Shown here: positions 1-25,600 of the stretch, one piece after another
Position numbering within the stretch: position 1 is the first letter of the stretch
How the letters are laid out: each line of letters opens with the position of its first letter
Assembly: GCA_027579435.1 (NCBI GenBank)
Contig: JANBPK010001226.1
Location: 1-59,171 of the forward strand
Direction of reading: 5' to 3'
Length of the DNA stretch: 59,171 nucleotides
DNA from: Candolleomyces eurysporus
Lineage: Eukaryota > Basidiomycota > Agaricomycetes > Agaricales > Psathyrellaceae
Position numbers and translations under genes: made by a program
Notes under the pieces: generated by a model
What the model was told of the DNA's origin: nothing
Databases searched by the model: none
What the model saw: the letters and a program-made list of their open reading frames with translations, nothing else

Positions 1-8
1 GGCACACA

Positions 9-244
9 GATCCGGTGCGTTCTGTCGCAATCTCGCCGGACGGCAAGCACATTGTCTCTGGCTCTGATGACAGGACGATTCGGATCTGGGATTTTGGAGA
101 CGGGGGCGCAGGTGGGGAGAGCCGCTCCGAGGGCACACAGACTGGGTGAGATCTGTCGCAATCTCGCCGGATGGCAAGCGGATCGTCTCGGGCGCAGAGG
201 ACAGCACCATCCGGATCTGGAGTGCAGAAGGGATACTAGTTTGA
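9..244 (+). pseudogene. WD40-repeat fragment, frameshifted
   Basis: Two WD40 blades typical of basidiomycete NACHT-WD40 (NLR-like) proteins can be read. The first starts at base 9 and contains [17 protein letters not shown] followed by TIRIWD. The second lies in another frame and contains [17 protein letters not shown] followed by TIRIWS, ending in a stop at 242-244. Between the blades the expected linker ([17 protein letters not shown]) can be recovered only by allowing one extra T near 94-96 and a 2-nt excess near 117-120. This is therefore a decayed fragment or the last exon of a broken gene entering from the left edge. No NACHT domain is in the window. Confidence 0.8.
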
Positions 245-14077: not shown

Positions 14078-14239
14078 TCAAATCAATGAGAGAAGACGCA
14101 CTGAGCGAGGGCGATAACAGGGTGTAGGGCCTATCCATCGATTTCTTCGACTGTGCGATGTTGTTAGTGAAGTATAAGTGGGAATCAAGATATGAAGATG
14201 GCACATACACCTCGATGTTTCTTGATCCCTAGCTCTATT
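14078..14239 (-). other. Probable terminal exons downstream of single-codon exon array 1
   Basis: After the last triplet, an 82-nt intron (14321-14240, acceptor TATTCCTAG) leads to a 29-nt exon at 14239-14211, followed by GTGTAT. The next acceptor is CGCACAG at 14151, and coding could continue from 14150. If the triplets are read in phase 0, the 29-nt exon gives NRARDQETS(R/S) and the frame closes at 14080-14078. If read in phase 2, it gives GIELGIKKHR and the frame closes near 14131. The 29-nt exon is alignable to the 31-nt exon at 21534-21504 next to array 2, showing that both arrays descend from one gene structure. Confidence 0.5.
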
Positions 14240-14315: not shown

Positions 14316-15853
14316 ACTTACCCACTGTTAAGAGGATAATAATGAGGACGTGAAAGAATGAATGTTGAATGAGGAAGAACTTGCGTGCTTGACAAGAAGA
14401 GATCCAGTCCTCGTGAATAGAGGCCTCATGGCTGAAGTTGAGGGGAGCTTACTTTCTGCACGATGTCAGGCATCATATTATACGCAGGAAAGACACCTTA
14501 CCCGCTGGACAACCGCGGACGTTGGAGTGAGATGGGTGTCAGCTGGTGAAATTTGGAGTGACTCACAAGCTTAACGACAGCAGATATCGGTTCGTCAGGG
14601 GTCAGTCTTGATCAGTGAGAATCGAAGTAACGCACAATCTGGACAGGAGTAGGCATGGTTAAGGGGAATCAACGCTGATCAATAAAGTGTCAAAGCGACT
14701 CACATTCTGGACAATGCCAGGCATTGGATTGAGGGTGGCTGACGTTCATCAGTGGCCATCAAAGCGAATAACTCACCCGCTGGACAACAGTGGAATGTGG
14801 GTCGCGAGGGGTGGCCCGGGTGAGTGCCAAACGATGAACTCATTCGGGGGTAACGTACAACCTGGACCCAGGAAGGGAGTAGATTTGGCCTGTCAGGCGT
14901 CGGAGTCAACCTGTGAGCATTGGAAGAACTCACAATCTGGACAGGAGCAGACATAAGGTCATAAGAAGTTGAGGACTTGGCGTCAAACGACTCACATTCT
15001 GGACGACGGCACGCATATAAGATTGTGAGTGGTGGTTGATGTCCATTACTGAGCATTCAATCAACTCACAGGCTGTTAATAGCGGACATTAATTTGACAG
15101 GTTGGTATGAATCAGCGGGCGTTAAAACAACGTACAATCTGGACAGCAGGAATCAGGTTATGTCATATTGACGTATATGAGCTCAATATAACTCACATTT
15201 TGGGCAGCGCCAGGCATCAAATTTTGTGTGGCGGATCTCAGTCGGTGAGCTTCTAAAAGATGGACAATCTTGAAAACAGGGGTTATGGACGGCCAGTATA
15301 GATCAGTAGCATAAACCTAACTCACAGACTGGGCAACAGGAGATGCCCTTGTCAGAGGTTGGTGTAGGGAGGGTCAGTCAGCATCAAACCAACTGACATC
15401 CTGGACAATGTTTTATGAGTGACATGATCAGAGCATCGGTAAAGAGTAAACTCACGGACTGTACAACAACACATATCGGTTCTTGAGAGGTTAGTCTTGA
15501 TCGGTGAGCATTGAAGCAACTCACGGGCTGGACGATGGCAGGCATCGGGGTGTGAGCAGTCAAGATTGGTCGACGGTGAATATTGAGCTAACTCACTGGC
15601 TGTACGACAGTAAATCTCGGGGCTGAGAAGTCAATGCCGATCGGTGGGCATTCAAGCAACTCACATCCTGGGGAATAACATAAAGCGTCACGCCGATCAA
15701 TAAGCACTGAAACAACTCACGAACTGGGCAATAGAACACATTAGGTGGAGAATTGATCGGTGAAAATGAAGCCGGATGTACATGCTAGAGATAAATGTCA
15801 GTTATTCTTAAGAAAGGGTCGTGGAAGAGAGGTCCCCCGAGCAATGCACCTAC
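14316..15853 (-). repeat. Tandem array 1: 22 intron-like units separated by 3-nt exons
   Basis: On the minus strand the region is a run of short intron-like units. Typical form: GTGAGT, a middle containing a CTGAC/TTAAC-type branch site, a C/T-rich CTGTTGTCCAG-like acceptor, then three bases, then the next GTGAGT. The 3-nt exons (plus-strand starts, minus-strand codon) are 15782 CAT, 15721 TTC, 15665 GAT, 15597 CCA, 15525 CCC, 15456 TCC, 15398 GAT, 15326 TCT, 15266 ATT, 15197 AAT, 15136 ATT, 15070 CCT, 14996 AAT, 14934 ATT, 14859 GTT, 14777 CGG, 14704 AAT, 14636 ATT, 14567 CTT, 14502 CGG, 14453 AAA, 14322 TGG. Intervening introns are 46-128 nt, mostly 53-79. Two units look decayed: 15197 (acceptor CAA instead of CAG) and 15266 (donor GTCCAT). 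Seen: the unit structure. Inferred: that the triplets are spliced in. Confidence 0.8.
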
Positions 15854-15886: not shown

Positions 15887-16981
15887 TCAATTAGCGCAAC
15901 TGACCTCAACAAAACGCTTCTCTATGTGACAAAAGATAGCCATTTCCTTGATGTTGTCGCGGCGAGGTGGGCACATTTCTTTATCTCGTTCTCCTGAGCA
16001 TATGAACCGCCTTTCACACCGGCGACTGCCACACCACTCCTCAGAACAATTACAGCATTTCTGAGTATGTCACGCACCAAACCAGCCAGCCATGGTCCTT
16101 GTATGTTCCAAGTCGTGTTCTTCCACATCTAGGGCATGTCTCCGCGACTTCTTCGACCCAGACTGCCTCAGTTAGCATGGTCATAACTAGGTGCTCACCG
16201 GACTCCTTGATATCCTTCAAACTTCCAGGCGTCACTACGACTCCATTATGTGCCCTCGCAATGGAGTAGCGTCGGCTACGGACACGCTGTTCGCCAATTT
16301 TCCCCTTAAAATATATAACCAAGGTTGCGTGCAGGTCCTTGTCAACCCAAAGTCAGCAAACCCAACGGGCTTTACGCCAAGGAAGGAGACGGGTACGTCG
16401 TAGCTTGAGACCAGTTCCCATGGGAAAGTTACGGTGCGCCCCAGCGCGTTGGTGATAACCATTGCGTTTGCACTACTGTGGCCAACAGTGGCTGGGAGGT
16501 TGCGTAGAAATTGTCGGAACATGGCCTCAGTGACTTTGGCGACAATCTGTTGAACTGGTATTCGGTGAGCTTTCGGTCAAGTCTCGGGACGCAAGGATGC
16601 GGTAGTGTACGTTCTGGGTTACTGGCATGGTTGACGATCATGTTTCCTGCTATGCTATTGAACGTCCCCCCGGTAATGGAGAAGTCCCTGCTGTTGGAGA
16701 TCGTTTGGAGAGAGGAATTCTGAGCGATTGATACTGTGTCTGCTAGAGATAACGTCAACTAAAGCCTGTCAATGGAGCGTAATTTACTCGCCGTCAGGCT
16801 CGGCCTGAGTTGTGGGCTGGGGGGAGGAGGGATTCCTGCGGAGGACATGACGGTCATCGGGACCATTAATATAGAAACCATCTGAGGGTGTAACGGCGCC
16901 ACAATTTCTGGAGAGGACTTCATATGGAATGTCGAAAATGCGATAAAGAATGTCGCGAACGACAGCAAGAATATTGTCCAT
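15887..16981 (-). CDS. Ubiquitin-like domain (ULD_2-type) protein with CPRC zinc-binding region; may continue into the array
   Basis: Exons: 16981-16788, 16690-16611, 16569-16397, 16337-16083 and 16036 (or 16039) onward. The first exon starts MDNILAVVRDILYRIF. Exon 2 carries the basidiomycete motif FSITGGTFNSIAGN. Exons 3-4 hold the ubiquitin-like fold (AMVITNALGRTVTFPWEL, YDDLHATLVIYFKG, RRYSIARAHNGVVVTPGS). CPRCGRTRLGTYKDHGW follows, then a Cys-rich tail (WCGSRRCERRFICSGE, MCPPRRDNIKEMAIFCHIEKRF). Read straight on, the frame ends at TGA 15889-15887. However, two possible splices (after 15905 or after 15901, both to the acceptor at 15865) join an 11-nt exon (15864-15854). Its strong GTAGGT donor leads directly into array 1, so the array may be the 3' part of this gene. 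Domains of this type accompany innate-immunity-like and kinase genes in mushrooms; no function is known here. Confidence 0.75.
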
Positions 16982-21503: not shown

Positions 21504-22082
21504 ATCTTGAGGCTTCCTTGATCTCAGCTTCCTCCTAGAAAAAGGATGGTAAGGCATCCCAAAGGGGATAGCTAGGCCATGCCTAGCGATAGATAACGAC
21601 TTACCCGCTGTTATAACAGTGAGGATGAGGGAAGATAGATGCTGAACGATGCGAAACTTACTGCCTTCAGGATGGGAGATAGATTGACAATCGATGAGGA
21701 TGTCTCATTTGGTATTGAAACAAAACCTACCAGCTGCACAACAACGGACGATACGTTGTGAGGCGTCGGCACTGATTAGCAAGCGTCGAAGTGACTCACG
21801 CTCTGGAGACAGGCAGGGATTGTTTCTGAGGGTTTTTCGTTGGTCAGGAAGGGTCGAAGCGACTCACAAGCTAAACAGTCGCAAAAATAGATCCATGAAG
21901 GGTCAGCGTAGATCAGTGAGCATTAAAGCAACTCACTCCCTAAACAACAGCAGCCATAATTCATGAGGGGTTGCCATCAATGGCTAACGAGCATCAAAGC
22001 GACTCACTCTCTGGACAACAGCAGACATTGGTTGCTGATCAGTTGGCGTCAATCGGCAAGCGTTCGGGTGACTTACTCTCTA
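21504..22082 (-). repeat. Tandem array 2: 8 intron-like units with 3-nt exons plus a 31-nt exon
   Basis: This is the same unit structure as array 1 on the same strand. Triplets (plus-strand start, minus-strand codon): 22077 AGA, 22008 AGA, 21937 GGA, 21868 CTT, 21800 AGC, 21731 CTG, 21662 GCA, 21605 CGG. Spacing is 57-71 nt. Acceptors are TAG, CAG or AAG; donors are GTAAGT, GTGAGT or GTAGGT. After the last triplet a 70-nt intron ends in TTCTAG, followed by a 31-nt exon (21534-21504) ending before GTACGT. In phase 0 this exon reads EEAEIKEASR and can be aligned with the corresponding exon of array 1. No ULD domain is found upstream. The array ends about 540 bp from the hAT insertion, so its 5' part may have been lost by rearrangement. 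Confidence 0.75.
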
Positions 22083-22630: not shown

Positions 22631-25600
22631 TAGTGAATTACGGGCTCATGTTCGGCCTGAAAGCTGCGGCTTGGGCCTGGCCTGAAGCAGCTTGGGCTTG
22701 AATAAATTTGAGGCCGAGCCGCCTTCAAGGGCTTGGGCCCAGCCTGGGCCGGCTTGGGCCTAAGCCGCGGCCTTTTTGTGGAGAATCATCTCAACGGAAA
22801 GAATAAGATAAATTAACTATACTACAGTACAGCGTCCTGATCGTCATCAGCATAATCATCACCGGATACTACATCCACCCAGTCAGGACTACCATCGTCG
22901 TCCTCGATACTTTCCTGTTCAATCTCCCAAAGTGAGGTATAGGGCGGGGTGCGATAAACGAGATTCTTTTGCAGGAGATACTTGAGAACCTGCAGAGCTT
23001 TGACAATGTCAGCTTTCAATTGATTACACTTTGAAATCATAATCCCAGCAGCTGAAAATACTCGCTCGCTTGATACAGATGACGCCATGATTGCAAGGTA
23101 GTCCCTTGCTAATGAGGCCCAAGTTGGAAGCCTCCGAGAGTTCACCTATTGAAAAAGAACAATGTCAGTTGTTGCAAAGGCTATCAACAACGGAATCGAA
23201 AACACACCACCCACCATTCCACCATAGACTGACCCTTTTCTCGCTCGTCATCACCATCAATATATTTTCTGAACTCCTTCAACCACGGTTGGTCACCAGA
23301 ACCTGTCATCGTCGTGGAGTCGTGATCTCGATGCTGATGGTGTAACGGAGGCCTTTTCAGCAGCTTCATTGAGCTCTTTCCATTGTGCTTCAAACTAAAA
23401 GTGTTGATTCAGTCAAATATCCACTAGTTGAAACGAAACAGAAGACAGAAAGTCACGATTTTCTCAGCATTGTCCCGAACTTCAAGCTCAAGCTTGTTGC
23501 CCCAGTGCTTCTGAAAGTAGTTAGTCTTTGAGTCGGGGTCAAGGACGGGTAGATTCACAAATCAGACCATAGAAACTGGTTGAAGAAGGGTACTCACTCA
23601 TTGCCATTGTATACATGTGCGAATATGAGGTCTTATTGTAATAATCTTTGATTTTCGCAAGACTGGCCTCGAGGGCAGGCCTATACTGCTTGTACTTCTC
23701 CTTTGAGCAAGAAGTCCAAGCCTTGTGAAGTCGCTCCAGCACAGGTAGGCCATTGTAAAGGCTTGGCTCAGTTTTGGAGGAGAAAGCCTGCTGAGCCTGG
23801 TCAGCAAACTAAACCAATATTGTCAGATATGTGAATGGGAAGAACAAAAAAGAATACAAGCCTTAAGCAAACCAAGCAACTCCTTAACTCACTCCCAATC
23901 CTTGTTGCTCAATCGCAAGCTTAGAAGCTTATTTTGCTTCTCAATGTTTGTTTCTTCAAAGCTCAACTCTGAAAGGAACAGGTTTATGTACTATATGAAT
24001 GTTAATAGAACCAAAGAACAGATACCAGATAGCAACTACATACCTTATGCAACTCATATGCTTGCTCAAGCATCAAGTAGGTGGAAGACCATCTGACCTT
24101 CATATCTACAAGTAAGGTCAGTGGAATTTTCACACCATCCTTTGCCTGAAGCTCCTTTAGCAAAGCATTCCGCTTTGCTGATGATTGAGCCTATATCATT
24201 TCAATCTTTGAGAGCACGATCCCAAAAAAGATAACCCCTTCGCACCTTTACAGCAATGCATCATACAACACCAACAACATCGTGCATCAGCTCCTCGTCT
24301 ATTACATCCACATTTGGCTCTTACTCACCTGGTTGGTCGCAATGAGCCAATCCTCTGCCACCTCCTGAAACAGAGTGTCCGAGTAAGGGACAACCCGCTC
24401 TTTCTCCTCAACGACATCATCCAATGTTGACTGCTGGGCTTTCTTGGCATCCTTCCGAGCCCTGACAGCTGCAGGGAGCTTCAACTCAGCACCATTACGC
24501 TTGCACCAAGCATTGTAACTTCCCTAAACACTCATCTTAAATAGGGTACTGCCGTGGTTAATTAAAAGATACATACTTGATGGGATGCTTGAATATGTTG
24601 GCAAAGAGTTGTTGTCTCTGAAACAACAAATCTAGAAGGGAATGAGCCAGAAAAATACAAATACAACAGTAAAGGGAACGTACTTTTCAATAGTTAGGCA
24701 CCAAAGACAACGTCGGTAGCGCTTCTGGCTTCCCTTAGGTCCACAAAGCACTGGTGGCCCAAAAAACTTGTCAATGTCACGAGTGCGGCTCAATCACTGG
24801 CTTGCCAATCTCACTTTTGCTGGAGGATTCCGACTTGTTTCCAGATTCTGTGTGTGGTGCAGGTGATGGCAATGGCAAAGAAATCCGTGGTTTTTTTTGC
24901 TTTTTCTGTGTTGAACATTAGAATAGAATTTAGATATCCAAGAGTGAACAAGACATCAAACAACTTACTTTTGGTTTTCAGTTTCTTGGCAGCAGGTTTG
25001 TCTTCATCCAAGGGTCCATTCTCATCAACATCTTCAACAGTCGCAGTACCGTGGTGGGTAGACATGATGGGGGAAAGCTGGTGAGAAGTTGCTGTTGAAC
25101 CCTGGGTGACAGGCTGTTGAGCTTCTCTCCCATGTTCATGGGCTTCTCTGTGGGCGTATACCTCAATATCACCAATGTTATTGGGATCGGTTAGCTTTGA
25201 GGCAGGTTGCCGTTTGCGTTTGTTCAAATCTGACATTGAGCACTCAAAGCCGTAATGCATTGGCCAGATGTTGACAGTTGTCAAAACTTGAAAGTGAGCT
25301 GATATGATGCTGTGCTATCAACAAACCTGGTAAGCTTGTGGCTGACATGGTACTCGAACTTTATCATACCAGTTCCATTCGGCACAGTTGTAGCCGTCTA
25401 GAATAATTTGAATAGGCTCCTGGAAAATTGTAGAGGAAATAGGAGAACATATTAGGATTGCCACTGATAAGCGGCATTTTGCCGATCATCATGGTTGATG
25501 TCAGCTTGGGCCGCTGGCCTGCACCTTAGGGTATAGGATAAATGGCCTGGCTTGGCTTGGGCTTAAGATGGCCAGCTCGGCCCGAGCTGGCCATCTTAAT

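Follow-up and report, generated by a model that had tools for sequence, protein, structure and literature searches.

Results

Structure of the host gene and its array

The window, by which we mean the complete stretch of 59,171 nucleotides that was analysed (Candolleomyces eurysporus, contig JANBPK010001226.1), carries on its minus strand a gene for a putative ubiquitin-like/zinc-ribbon protein. Between two of its 3' exons lies an array of 23 units with a spacing of 49–82 nt, each composed of an intron and 3 nt. The features are listed in Table 1.

Table 1. Features of the host gene and of the two arrays in the window.
Feature	Position	Strand	Remarks
Likely start codon of host gene	16979..16981	minus	MDNILAVVRD...; compared by eye with MGNILSTIRD... 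of P0007 (C. aberdarensis)
Exon with first ULD_2 part	16397..16576	minus	Upstream border approximate; donor GTACCC at 16396, by eye
Exon A	16078..16337	minus	Remaining ULD_2 and first CPxC pair of zinc ribbon; phase 2 end, donor GTGCGT
Exon B	15905..16025	minus	Second CxxC pair (CRRC) of zinc ribbon; phase 0 end, donor GTCAGT
Single-codon exon array	14322..15784	minus	23 predicted exons, from CAT (15784) to TGG (14322); introns of 46–79 nt between; reads HFDPPSDSINIPNIVRNILRKHW
Array triplets 1–12		minus	CAT TTC GAT CCA CCC TCC GAT TCT ATT AAT ATT CCT
Array triplets 13–23		minus	AAT ATT GTT CGG AAT ATT CTT CGG AAA CAC TGG
Exon C	14209..14239	minus	Phase 0 start, phase 1 end, donor GTATGT
Exon D	14131..14150	minus	Conserved C-terminus FEE... 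and stop TAG (14131–14133)
Second array	21605..22079	minus	8 predicted single-codon exons: AGA AGA GGA CTT AGC CTG GCA CGG
Exon C of second array	21504..21534	minus	EEAEIKEASR, by eye

Similarity to ULD_2 (PF22893) extends over two exons. Taken alone, the ORF of the first gave a weak Pfam match (E 0.014, 16 bits), and exon A scored 23.7 bits, slightly under the curated cut-off of 24.5; the model of a family member on another contig, C550, reached 48.4 bits (numbers with a C denote contigs of the same genome). In an alignment, the joined window product matched P0007 at 56% over 178 residues. An upstream ORF (16429–16758, minus strand) contains the motif SRDFSITGGTFNSIAGN, and annotated relatives have a comparable stretch near the N-terminus (SNNFSVDGVTVNAIEGG in P0007).

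The first-pass annotation had proposed single-codon exons on the minus strand, counted 22 of them and placed them between two neighbouring exons, the upstream one at 16337–16083. The array was confirmed, and a recount gives 23 units, so that the predicted insertion is 69 nt rather than 66 nt. The upstream exon in fact ends at 16078, and the two exons are not neighbours: the conserved exon B, which had been overlooked, lies between them and closes the frame. From exon B the frame runs unbroken through the array and exon C to the conserved stop. Exons A to D are all open, with phase and stop conserved, and the 23 triplets are free of stop codons.

This anatomy (ULD_2 exon pair, exon A, exon B, array, exon C, exon D) was found by eye to be common to the window and five other loci. 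Counterparts of exon B were seen, also by eye, in C550, C617, C1160, C262 and C1126. Ends resembling that of exon D are FEELKE in C550, IEKVKEG in C617 and, by eye, FEEVLE in C262.

The acceptor AG is intact in 22 of the 23 window units, the exception being an AA in front of the AAT at 15197–15199. The donor GT is likewise present in 22 of 23; the triplet CAC (14385–14387) is followed by GCAAGT, and two further donors, GTACAT and GTCCAT, are weak. Branch-like sites had been described as common, which agrees with the occurrence of CTNAY in 18 of 23 units, searched in the 39-nt stretch ending 6 nt 5' of the exon, as compared with 22.5% of background stretches. The intron interiors have drifted, as had also been noticed: with strict gaps their mean identity is 0.451, against 0.379 for shuffled partners and 0.758 for the introns of C550, and with loose gaps 0.725 against 0.717 (shuffled). 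Since the interiors resemble each other only slightly more than shuffled sequences do, the preserved splice signals are more than the remnant of a young repeat.

A generic splice parse of the window array with free exon length (1–30 nt) chose 3 nt in 21 of 22 exons. Under a stricter branch-point rule the choice was 3 nt in 19 of 21 exons and 26 nt in the remaining two; 20 shuffles yielded 0.55 on average. The earlier statement that longer exons do not work thus holds for most units, but in one of 22 or two of 21, depending on the parse, a longer exon was preferred.

In the second array of the window, the strict parse gave 3 nt in five of seven exons. This array is likely a 5'-truncated copy, since the contig has no second ULD match. 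Nearby is an open frame (22822–23145, minus strand) which we take to resemble the end of a hAT-type transposase.

Related arrays throughout the genome

The scan covered one genome of 65.85 Mb in 1296 contigs. A pattern for a pair of triplets matched 289 times, compared with six matches in the reversed control. Grouped according to the base that opens the second triplet, the matches numbered 97, 97 and 90, triplets starting with N being omitted. TRR occurred as second triplet in three matches, all of them TGG, and there was no stop codon among the second triplets of the 289 pairs.

An 86-residue ULD piece had 42 matches in the genome, itself included. In 34 of these, at least one pair match follows 324–561 nt downstream on the same strand. 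The eight ULD matches without an array comprise five with a TGA inside the match, one near a contig end, and those on C60 and C1142. In the latter two no array was detected, and a single open exon continues past the FRH motif, which on C1142 reaches a stop 18 residues further on. Given these two genes, the array gives the impression of a tail that was added to the ULD gene.

An adjoining ULD match is absent in nine array matches: the second window array, C381, C1229 (at the contig start), C483 and C971 (whose introns belong to another family), and single pairs on C198, C834, C315 and C986, which may be due to chance. The AG-NNN-GT arrays at C971 7500–10839 and C483 1–3500 use introns of the type GTGAGTGGTTGCTCTGAATGCAGCTG... 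and lack a ULD match; they may represent a second gene type with single-codon exons.

The longest arrays are those of C550 with 59 units and C617 with 43. When conceptually spliced, both (59 and 43 codons) are open in frame to the conserved stop. Arrays differ in the intron family used. Outside the window, the introns between the microexons are mostly 58 nt long.

Two side observations concern the array ends. The units listed for C1010 52478–52662 and C1229 6–190 are identical, one set being inside its contig and the other at the start; a single gene may have been split or collapsed in the assembly, and the true arrays may exceed their assembled length. The first profile intron is preceded by a Thr codon in 22 of 33 arrays (13 ACG, 5 ACC, 3 ACA and 1 ACT) and by ATG in five of 33.

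Exon length and splice signals

Of the 184 exons in the generic parse of seven arrays, 115 had 3 nt, 60 had 19 nt and 9 had other lengths; on C1160, all nine exons had 3 nt. Introns of the commonest family contain a competing CAG, placed 16 nt upstream of the acceptor and also upstream of the conserved branch motif, and the generic parse did not decide between the two acceptors of this 61-nt family. It was replaced by a Viterbi parse with a profile of the 58-nt intron and free exon length, applied to the 33 arrays of the commonest type (that is, without C234, C1160, C971 and C483). Here 371 of 375 exons had 3 nt, in a parse that leans to such units since the profile was built from AG-NNN-GT units. 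Intron copies more than 40 nt apart yield no exon, triplets with N are dropped from the counts, and a few triplets are counted twice because C1010 and C1229 share an identical stretch. The four deviating exons were three of 4 nt and one of 8 nt. The 8-nt exon is a parse artefact caused by a misplaced intron end, one of the 4-nt exons contains an N, and the other two are found in C1126 and C78. The pattern acceptor-N{0,24}-donor matched 112 times; among the 100 matches listed, 99 had 3 nt and one had 4 including an N.

In comparisons of homologous array units, the GT and AG columns differ in only 0–2% of pairs, against an intron mean of 21%. Absence of conserved GT/AG in homologues had been named as a sign of a neutral minisatellite, and is not what we found. 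The CTNAY motif, 12–16 nt before the exon, has the profile to be expected of a branch site, with differences of 0.11 (T), 0.38 (N), 0.08 (A) and 0.09 (Y), and of 0.22 at its C, at an intron mean of 0.21.

Properties of the triplets

Among 393 triplets we found no stop codon, against 21.9 expected from column composition. Counted by frame, there were stops in 0 of 312 (frame 0), 3 of 291 (frame 1) and 37 of 291 (frame 2). The absence may in part be an effect of splicing, because TAA or TGA would create a second GTRAGT at the acceptor (AG-TRA-GTRAGT). With the triplet TAT, GTATGT arises at this very position, and TAT is nevertheless frequent (18 of 312).

The introns of an array differ from one another by 21% per site, the triplets by 68, 65 and 58% at the three codon positions. 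The paralogous arrays of C617 and C1229 revealed the opposite relation. In 34 matched units (one mis-parsed exon was set by hand), 29 codons are identical, two differ synonymously and three non-synonymously. This amounts to 7 of 102 codon bases (6.9%), as compared with 267 of 1641 bases in the intron interiors (16.3%; Fisher P 0.011). If the alignment is slid by one to three units, only one to five codons are in common and the introns differ by 23–24%. The contrast between codons and introns rests on this pair, the only one among the 14 best pairs that shares most codons. Other best pairs share few, such as C1126/C262 (4 of 15) and C423/C1099 (4 of 11), indicating that most tails have diverged.

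Taken together, the lack of stops, the closure of the frame and the pattern of codon and intron divergence suggest that the triplets behave as translated codons. Along with the free-length parse, they also lend support to the proposal of the first-pass annotation that single-codon exons are selectively kept, as far as this can be read from DNA.

Predicted tails and public protein models

The predicted tails are rich in E, L, Q, R, F and K. Four arrays were long enough for a test of helical periodicity. The C550 tail had an amphipathic-helix periodicity above that of its own shuffles (P 0.004), and in the three other tails it was not significant.

A search of 5.8 billion proteins with two conceptually spliced proteins retrieved seven matches, which covered the ULD part only and never the tail. 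All seven public relatives contain PF22893; five are from C. eurysporus and two from C. aberdarensis. None of these seven family models carries the tail, and most stop before the zinc-ribbon intron, at its border or shortly after entering it. At the end of P0002, residues resembling exon B in another frame were noticed by eye. As possible proof of splicing, the genome was searched for a spliced retrocopy of the C550 tail; none was found, the only match being exon C with neighbouring codons.

Discussion

Single codons predicted to be spliced into a protein tail

From the genomic sequence we consider it very probable that the 23 codons of the array, each lying singly between short introns, are joined by splicing, with the frame kept, and encode the tail at the C-terminus of a ubiquitin-like/zinc-ribbon protein. 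The spliceosome would remove the array introns in turn, each splice carrying the growing exon to the next donor. Stepwise removal is the simplest assumption, since an acceptor and a donor 3 nt apart could hardly be recognised at once for adjacent introns. Such removal, donor by donor, resembles recursive splicing.

The array would be a tandem repeat in which the intron part behaves like a repeat and the lone codon is under selection at the protein level. With each unit gained or lost, the tail would become longer or shorter by a single residue. As each unit is symmetric, exons could also be skipped without a shift of frame. We infer a variable C-terminal tail on a ubiquitin-like/zinc-ribbon protein; our guess is that it serves binding or recognition.

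A more far-reaching proposal is that of codon-cassette arrays, in which an intron plus one codon is the unit of evolution and tails vary residue by residue. Skipping of subsets might give a 59-unit gene an enormous set of tails, for example for recognition between individuals. We put this forward tentatively and think it rather unlikely.

Alternative explanations

The window copy might be a decaying pseudogene, with other members of the family functional. The deviating splice sites described above (the AA acceptor, the GC donor and the two weak donors), the drifted introns and the presence of a second window array without ULD match are what decay would produce; the open exons A to D, the 23 triplets without stop and the conserved phase and stop argue against it. 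On balance we regard decay of this copy as unlikely, although it is the alternative to be taken most seriously.

Introners, that is, mobile introns, might have invaded a pre-existing coding sequence at every codon, which would make the codons older than the introns. A burst of insertion would explain why intron divergence within C550 is nearly independent of distance (0.182 for neighbours, 0.198 at 12 or more units) and why codons are far more diverse than introns. Dispersal was not seen, however: of the 143 genomic matches to the intron core, all those listed are on contigs bearing an array. Random insertion also predicts multi-codon exons and other phases, in contrast to the almost uniform length of 3 nt in the profile parse. 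The genes on C1142 and C60 show no comparable tail, and the intron families differ among arrays. An origin by dispersed introners is therefore improbable, and tandem amplification of intron plus codon, with later exchange among introns and selection on codons, fits the data better.

Alternatively, the array might be a neutral minisatellite inside one large intron, exon B being joined directly to exon C and the triplets left untranslated. Its units are indeed related tandem repeats, and skipping all of them is compatible with the frame, as the end of exon B and the start of exon C are both in phase 0. In a neutral minisatellite all columns should drift alike, but triplets, introns and GT/AG columns drift at three very different rates. 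Inside arrays the diversity of the triplets is roughly threefold that of the introns, but the triplets have diverged less than the introns between the two paralogous arrays; the missing stops, and the AG and GT kept in nearly every window unit despite drifted interiors, point in the same direction. A neutral minisatellite is thus very unlikely.

Least credible of all are longer exons, in which use of the upstream acceptor TTCAG (16 nt before) would divide the units of the 61-nt family into 19 nt of exon and 42 nt of intron. The generic parse with a minimum intron of 42 nt did pick 19 nt for 60 of its 184 exons, but this length disrupts the frame, and stops occur in the parsed products. The competing CAG varies at its A in 18% and at its G in 28% of pairs, as compared with 0–1% for the other acceptor, the conserved CTNAY branch motif lies downstream of that CAG, and 3 nt were chosen in all C1160 exons and in 19 of 21 exons of the window array.

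Significance and comparison with known systems

Should splicing of the arrays proceed as predicted, one transcript would unite as many as 59 successive one-codon exons. The arrays would then be a test of how the spliceosome copes with dozens of consecutive acceptor–donor pairs spaced by 3 nt, and would offer a route by which a protein gains single residues, in frame, between intron repeats. The public family models suggest that current fungal annotation misses entire protein tails, and similarly shaped genes may go unnoticed in other genomes.

In the literature on tiny or consecutive exons, as far as it lies outside most subscription journals, we did not find a gene with a run of single-codon exons. 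Tiny exons that occur singly have been described in fungi, namely a single-nucleotide exon of CYP621A in Fusarium (PMC12940212) and a microexon of Xlr2 in Trichoderma virens (PMC11121469), and very small exons are spliced in plants (PMC8831610). These cases indicate that tiny exons can be spliced, also in fungi; the passages cited describe no arrays of single codons. The run with a 3-bp exon that we used for comparison is that of RPS24, in which three consecutive microexons of 3, 18 and 22 bp are used alternatively between two constitutive exons (PMC11162997). It shares with the arrays the succession of microexons, one of them 3 bp long, but according to the cited passage it is only three exons long and alternatively used.

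Fungal introners, or introner-like elements, are short spliceosomal introns with many near-identical copies across many genes (PMC4457414, PMC9860276; as described in the passages cited). The introns of the arrays are similar in being short and present in related copies, and differ in their distribution, as among the intron-core matches listed there were no copies dispersed in unrelated genes.

The bicycle genes of aphids have, to our knowledge, neither single-codon exons nor introns that are tandem repeats. The cited passage describes them as a fast-evolving insect family whose gene structure includes microexons (PMC9168663); the likeness to the arrays is that of a microexon-containing gene family, which in aphids evolves fast.

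The closest counterpart are the micro-exon genes (MEG) of Schistosoma mansoni, which form a family of some 35 members with 10–20 very short exons each (PMC10526429). In the part of this source cited here, the exons have 6–81 bp (3–81 is also given), mostly in multiples of 3, and the introns about 0.1–5 kb. The arrays resemble the MEG in having a run of very short exons whose lengths are mostly multiples of 3 and which are hard for automatic annotation (PMC10526429), and almost all exons of the profile parse agree with the description of many short exons divisible by 3. Unlike those of the MEG, as far as described there, the exons here are single codons, up to 59 in number, with tandemly related introns of 46–82 nt. 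With introns this short, below the MEG range both in the window and elsewhere, the arrays are not members of the MEG family. They are predicted to work like a microexon gene, and of this gene type they are an extreme form.
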